A stretch of DNA of 64,000 nucleotides, taken from Natronobeatus ordinarius (GTDB lineage: Archaea > Halobacteriota > Halobacteria > Halobacteriales > Natrialbaceae). Positions 2,344 through 44,879 of this stretch are shown piece by piece. Every line of letters begins with the position of its first letter. Position 1 is the first letter of the stretch. The translations under genes and the position numbers were made by a program. Location of the stretch: positions 3,162,001 to 3,226,000 of the forward strand of contig NZ_CP101456.1 of assembly GCF_024362485.1 (NCBI RefSeq), in the 5' to 3' direction. Below the pieces are notes generated by a model, which did not search any database, was not told where the DNA came from, and saw nothing but the letters and a program-made list of their open reading frames with translations.

Positions 2344-2407
2344 TGGCGAGCCCAGCCTGAGCTGCAGTCGTGACCGGGTGTACAATGACGTTCAACGGTT
2401 ACCATAG
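2344..2407 (+). repeat. Palindromic element family 1, truncated copy C
   Basis: The last 41 bases (2367-2407) match the right end of the element at 44839-44879 with about three differences; the preceding 23 bases match more loosely with a short gap. Only the right half is present. It abuts the stop codon of the isoprenyl synthase. Confidence 0.75.
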
Positions 2408-35675: not shown

Positions 35676-35862
35676 TGTACAGCCCTTGATAGCCACCCCG
35701 GGAACCTCAATATCTTCCTTCGAACAATAATGTATGATACCCACCACCTACTCGAGTGAGTGGCGCAATTATTGCACAATCATTGCCTCGATTGGGCGGC
35801 GGCCGTCCCTGCAGTATCGGCTGCCGACCGTCAGAGTAGTGTTCGACATCGCGCGTCGGCAC

Positions 35863-35975
35863 CCGTCGAACGTCAGCGCACACCCGGTCACGGACGTCGA
35901 CGACCAGCCTCGGCGACGAGGTCGAGGCTGGTCGCTCGGCTGCGGTCGGCTGGAACTCGTTTCAACGACCACTAT
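35863..35975 (-). repeat. Palindromic element family 1, copy B
   Basis: Read on the minus strand, these 113 bases align without gaps to 44758-44870 on the plus strand, with about 93 identities counted by eye (about 82%). The inner stem is CGACCAGCCTCG/CGAGGCTGGTCG with a 10-base loop. Relative to copy A, one G-C pair of the stem is A-T here, so pairing is kept. It starts about 20 bases after the stop of the HTH-rhodanese gene and lies upstream of the sqr promoter. Confidence 0.8.
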
Positions 35976-35995
35976 CGTATCGGACCTCGAGACGC

Positions 35996-44749: not shown

Positions 44750-44767
44750 CGAGCACTATAGTGCTCG
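44750..44767. repeat. 18-bp perfect palindrome at the edge of element copy A
   Basis: CGAGCACTATAGTGCTCG is its own reverse complement. It overlaps the left end of the family 1 element (CTATAG at 44756). It may be a protein-binding site or the sequence the element's end pairs with; copy B lacks this perfect symmetry. Confidence 0.6.
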
Positions 44768-44879
44768 TTGAAACGATTTACACCCGGTCACAGCCGAGCG
44801 GCCAGCCTCGGCCTCGTTGGCGAGGCTGGCCGCCAACGGTCGTGACCGGGTGTGCAATGACTTTCAACGGTTACTATAG
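44756..44879 (+). repeat. Palindromic element family 1, copy A (most complete)
   Basis: 124 bases bounded by CTATAG at each end. Outer arms are imperfect inverted repeats sharing CTATAGT, CGTTGAAA and ACCCGGTCAC; the inner stem is a perfect 11-bp repeat GGCCAGCCTCG/CGAGGCTGGCC around a 10-base loop. It lies between two convergent 3' ends (61 bases after the antiporter stop, 17 bases from the stress-protein stop). Copies B and C are elsewhere in the window. No coding capacity and no obvious target duplication. Confidence 0.85.

Follow-up and report, generated by a model that had tools for sequence, protein, structure and literature searches.

This locus raises the question of what a long palindromic repeat is doing in three gene spacers of a 64,000-nucleotide stretch of the Natronobeatus ordinarius genome (hereafter, the window). 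A sequence-only reading had offered two answers, a structured element at the 3' ends of transcripts or a MITE-like repeat. The copies were delimited, searched for in the whole genome and in other haloarchaea, and compared with empty orthologous sites, neighbouring genes, and transposon ends.

Copies in the window and the palindrome

The likeness first noticed between copies A (44758-44870, +) and B (35863-35975, -) was confirmed, with 93 of 113 bases identical and no gaps, as was that of a third copy, C, where 38 of the 41 bases of 2367-2407 agreed with the right end of A. The limits and parts were as follows (CM, covariance model).

44757..44878 (+): copy A, complete element, 122 bp including both TA flanks (CM R1, 149 bits, E 2e-39)
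44757..44786 (+): left terminal inverted repeat of A, TATAGTGCTCGTTGAAACGATTTACACCCG; end kept across copies, compared with IS630 ends
44849..44878 (-): right terminal inverted repeat of A, read inward TATAGTAACCGTTGAAAGTCATTGCACACC; compared with IS630 ends
44802..44829 (+): inner stem-loop of A, differing between subfamilies with paired changes (pair counts)
35855..35976 (-): copy B, 122 bp, full length, older and decayed (CM 87.6 bits, E 4.7e-22)
2353..2406 (+): copy C, relic, below the CM threshold

Copy A is made up of TA, a 118-bp TAGT...ACTA sequence, and a second TA. Over the full element, B was identical to A in 95 of 122 positions, its left terminal base being altered and its right end decayed. 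Copy C was not recovered by the covariance model search; its arm at 2367-2406 is clear, the left arm is absent, and the central stem may survive as a remnant. A sits between convergent genes, one for a Na+/H+ antiporter carrying TrkA domains and the other for a Usp protein. B lies beside the genes for an HTH-rhodanese protein and a sulfide-dehydrogenase-like flavoprotein, and C beside a polyprenyl synthetase gene and an unassigned reading frame; both are also upstream of the next gene.

Copy A is an almost full-length palindrome with the ends TATAGT...ACTATA, and its alignment with its own reverse complement gave 94 identical columns, i.e., terminal inverted repeats are present. Folded as RNA, it reached -86.7 kcal/mol (z = -11.4), which was equalled by 0/200 shuffles. 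Pairing in the inner stem had been seen to persist through a base change, and it does so more widely, model pair 46-73 being G-C, C-G, or U-A among the copies. Two-sided changes were found in 5 pairs (1.7 in shuffles), and changes to G-U in the stem were in moderate excess over those to A-C (158 vs 100). The very stable fold and the paired changes speak for a structured element selected for its stem, whether an RNA or a 3' element such as a terminator or mRNA stabiliser. However, paired changes are not specific to an RNA element, since palindromic DNA can show them likewise; their excess is weak evidence for selection, as related copies share history, and the only moderate G-U excess counts against RNA.

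Copies with matching changes at both ends raise another, improbable but conceivable, reading: the palindrome may be actively kept, e.g., by hairpin-templated repair or through a folded DNA transposition intermediate, with mutations in one arm copied to the other. In Natrinema G104, three copies (L219, L220, L221) read TATCGT...ACGATA, both ends being altered symmetrically, and a fourth (L229) reads TAGAGT...ACTCTA; these symmetric terminal changes may mark a subfamily or else reflect copying from one arm to the other.

Copies in the genome and in other haloarchaea

The genome (4.2 Mb, 2 contigs) was searched with blastn, which gave 40 copies, and with a covariance model based on 28 of these copies, which gave about 85 distinct places, the weakest few doubtful. 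Each palindrome was counted once, though often matching on both strands. The three copies of the sequence-only reading were thus an undercount, that reading having been confined to the window. The copies comprised two families plus decayed relics. The family of A and B carries ...CGTTGAAACGATTTACACCC..., and the second carries ...CAACTGAAACGRKTTACACAC.... The left end block, TGAAACG[A/G][T/G]TTACAC, and the right end block, GTGTGCAATGAC[T/G]TTCA, are found in both families; outside and inside these blocks, the bases show paired differences between the two. In 30 aligned copies, homology extended sharply from TATAGT to ACTATA between unrelated flanks, and both the 122-bp length and the TATA...TATA ends were nearly constant among copies. 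No match to the exact 20-base pattern of family 1 was obtained in database contigs, where the own genome was perhaps left out.

Some elements were paired in tandem, 1-5 bp apart or with the terminal TA/TATA in common (G054, C5:50921-51090, C48:137696-137864, and C49:27971-28143; G226, C36:43219-43391; G000, C1:954671-954912 and 2167967-2168200). Versions of 48-67 bp, with both ends kept and the central stem lost, were also observed (G000:C1:2692803-2692850, 1262357-1262423, and 1174622-1174688).

Extended to other haloarchaea, as had been proposed, the search gave related elements in 36 of 195 genomes of the order (E <= 1e-8), patchily distributed in four families and often in an 84-bp form. 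In Natrinema, the genus of G054, 12 of 13 genomes matched, and one single-contig genome gave none. Match counts there spanned 0 to 94, which are not exact copy numbers, because a palindrome could be counted on both strands and no more than 150 candidates per genome were scored. Copies range from none to dozens by species within this genus.

Insertion sites and position relative to genes

Ten insertions of the 84-bp form in Natrinema G104 were compared with the orthologous sites in other Natrinema species. Five of the ten were missing there; one (L225) was common to G103. For L219, L216, and L221, the empty site was CTAG and the occupied one C-TA...TA-G, and the empty sites of L223 and L211 were CTATAG and CCAG, respectively. 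Occupied sites at CTAG read C-TA-[TAGT or TCGT ... ACTA or ACGA]-TA-G. The sequence gained is thus 82 bp long and consists of the element with a single TA, the TA having been duplicated. At the L223 site, G103 (L245) has CTATAG in place of CTAG, which could be the original target or an excision footprint.

Among short-form copies whose terminal TA was intact, 110 of 153 had C...G flanks, as did 19 of 56 copies in the own genome, against a background of 1.27% CTAG among NTAN sites, each copy being taken as an independent case. The duplication was seen on the 84-bp Natrinema form, and for the 122-bp form the evidence consists of the flank statistics and an element-free A locus in G017. Insertion at CTAG with TA duplication is the signature of IS630.

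The same features bear on REP-like or IS200/IS605-related palindromes (PATEs), which are moved as single-stranded DNA and are common in Haloquadratum (PMC3119063). The element resembles them in being palindromic and intergenic. Its terminal inverted repeats and TA duplication, which PATEs and IS605 elements are without (PMC3119063), contradict this identity and leave it with hardly any probability.

Genes were predicted by a home-made codon-bias method. Although 84% of the window was predicted to be coding, no copies were found inside predicted genes in the stretches examined around them. Insertions into genes would have been lost to selection, intergenic ones surviving. Tandem spacers contained 38 of the 73 classifiable copies, divergent ones 18, and convergent ones 17, and the orientation of the copies relative to transcription was random (16 same, 22 opposite, p = 0.42). 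All copies had been described as lying within about 60 bases of a stop codon. This holds for the copies in the window, whose distances are 61 and 17 bp, 19 bp, and 23 bp, but not genome-wide, where a predicted stop was within 60 bp in 30 of the 73. In tandem spacers, the copy was closer to the upstream stop in 27 cases vs 11 (p = 0.014), which agrees with a 3' element but is also expected from the removal of insertions near promoters.

The flanks of ten own copies were sought in 12 genera, where the spacers were too diverged to reveal empty sites and only the gene pair of A was informative: in G017, which belongs to another genus, the convergent antiporter-Usp pair encloses an unrelated spacer without the element. 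The Rfam scan of the window gave no match, and neither did phage records. A fixed position or orientation relative to transcripts, as for a 3' RNA element, was not found. With copies in all spacer types, divergent ones included, random orientation, empty orthologous sites, and no Rfam family, a structured RNA or 3' element is very unlikely, and this half of the sequence-only reading is not supported. The MITE-like half stands, on the many copies, sharp ends, TA duplication at CTAG, orthologous presence or absence, and IS630-like ends.

IS630 transposons and comparable small elements

Five IS630-family transposons, nearly identical to one another and about 1060 bp long (L060-L064), were found in the Natronobeatus ordinarius genome, together with a sixth that has diverged (L059). 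In L062, orfA (174 aa, HTH domains) overlaps orfB (163 aa, DDE_3), and both match IS630 in NCBIfam. The termini of L060-L064 are TATAGT...ACTATA, with mostly C and G as flanks. These five copies are mutually 99.6-100% identical, which suggests recent IS630 activity in this genome.

The element is like IS630/Tc1-mariner transposons (IS630, ISY100) in its duplicated TA and preferred CTAG: ISY100, of the IS630 family, inserts at TA with duplication (PMC2170065), and the same paper cites Tenzen & Ohtsubo 1991, whose title states the CTAG preference of IS630. With L060-L064 it shares the TATAGT...ACTATA ends and a partial likeness over the terminal 30 bp. The ends of this genome's IS630 copies are TATAGTAACCGTTAGAATTTTCC... 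and TATAGTAAAAATTAGAAATAATTGCTCAC..., the best of which agreed with the element in 14/23 positions. This is below the 16/23 beyond TATAGTA (0/20000 shuffles) reached by an IS630 end from a relative, TATAGTAGTCGTTAGAAATAATTGCTCACC, against the best of four element ends, a value somewhat selected, as about fifteen distinct IS630 ends were tried, though most others were at the 0.1% level as well. The right terminal inverted repeat of A is the end closest to this IS630 right end; the left ends agree less, and in place of the TTGAAA of the element, TTAGAA is found at the IS630 ends. The element differs from IS630 in having no transposase gene, in its length (122 or 84 bp vs about 1060 bp), and in a palindromic interior unrelated to that of IS630. 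In a Natrononativus plasmid (L105, 1379-1427), an IS630 remnant abuts half an element, into which it was perhaps inserted.

All fetched loci were scanned with the end pattern, which was scored at 24 positions with up to 5 mismatches allowed. Beyond the element, relics, and single chance hits in unrelated bacteria, only IS630 ends were obtained, a result that favours IS630 in part because the loci were gathered partly through IS630 searches. No autonomous element with closer ends was seen among these loci.

A different transposase that duplicates TA at CTAG could also have moved the MITE, IS630 being merely similar at the ends. The end likeness is only partial, and G104, G054, G008, and G035 have many copies, dozens in some genomes, with no DDE_3 transposase at the search threshold. 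This absence is not decisive, as past loss would explain it, and it could even be expected, since a MITE can outlive its helper. Both target and duplication agree with IS630, as does the end-pattern scan despite its sampling, and another transposase is accordingly an unlikely source of mobility.

The element is short, gene-free, and multicopy, with terminal inverted repeats, TA duplication, and empty orthologous sites, and it shares its ends, at partial similarity, with an autonomous transposon through the IS630 copies. On these sequence comparisons, it is a MITE, and the enzyme that moves it is most likely a transposase of the IS630 type. Its 118-bp sequence (TAGT...ACTA) is non-coding, almost a palindrome, and flanked by a duplicated TA. 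An IS630-family transposase would act on it in trans, binding the ends, excising the element, and inserting it at TA, preferably CTAG, i.e., by cut-and-paste transposition.

In bacteria, the Correia/NEMIS, RUP, and ERIC elements are likewise small and intergenic, carry inverted repeats, and duplicate a TA target; the element is likened to them by description, the hosts being different. Closer by host are the MITEs of Haloquadratum, which are short and mostly non-coding, with strain-specific copies, target duplication, and terminal inverted repeats related to a transposon, sometimes with no intact transposase in the genome (PMC3119063). The element is like them in those traits, again by description (PMC3119063), and IS630 goes unmentioned in the main text of that study. 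The SMRs of Haloquadratum resemble it in length (about 80-110 bp), prominent inverted repeats, and copy number (up to 54), but they are reported to lack a target duplication and to target other mobile elements (PMC3119063), whereas the element duplicates TA at intergenic CTAG sites. The literature searched yielded neither a published name for the element nor an account of any IS630-related MITE from haloarchaea.

The finding accounts for a prominent repeat structure, present in many spacers of haloarchaea, that could be mistaken for a terminator or a non-coding RNA. With dozens of copies in a genome, inserted at a motif, CTAG, that is rare here (1.3% of NTAN sites), the element offers markers of genome change and a test bed for trans-mobilisation in archaea.
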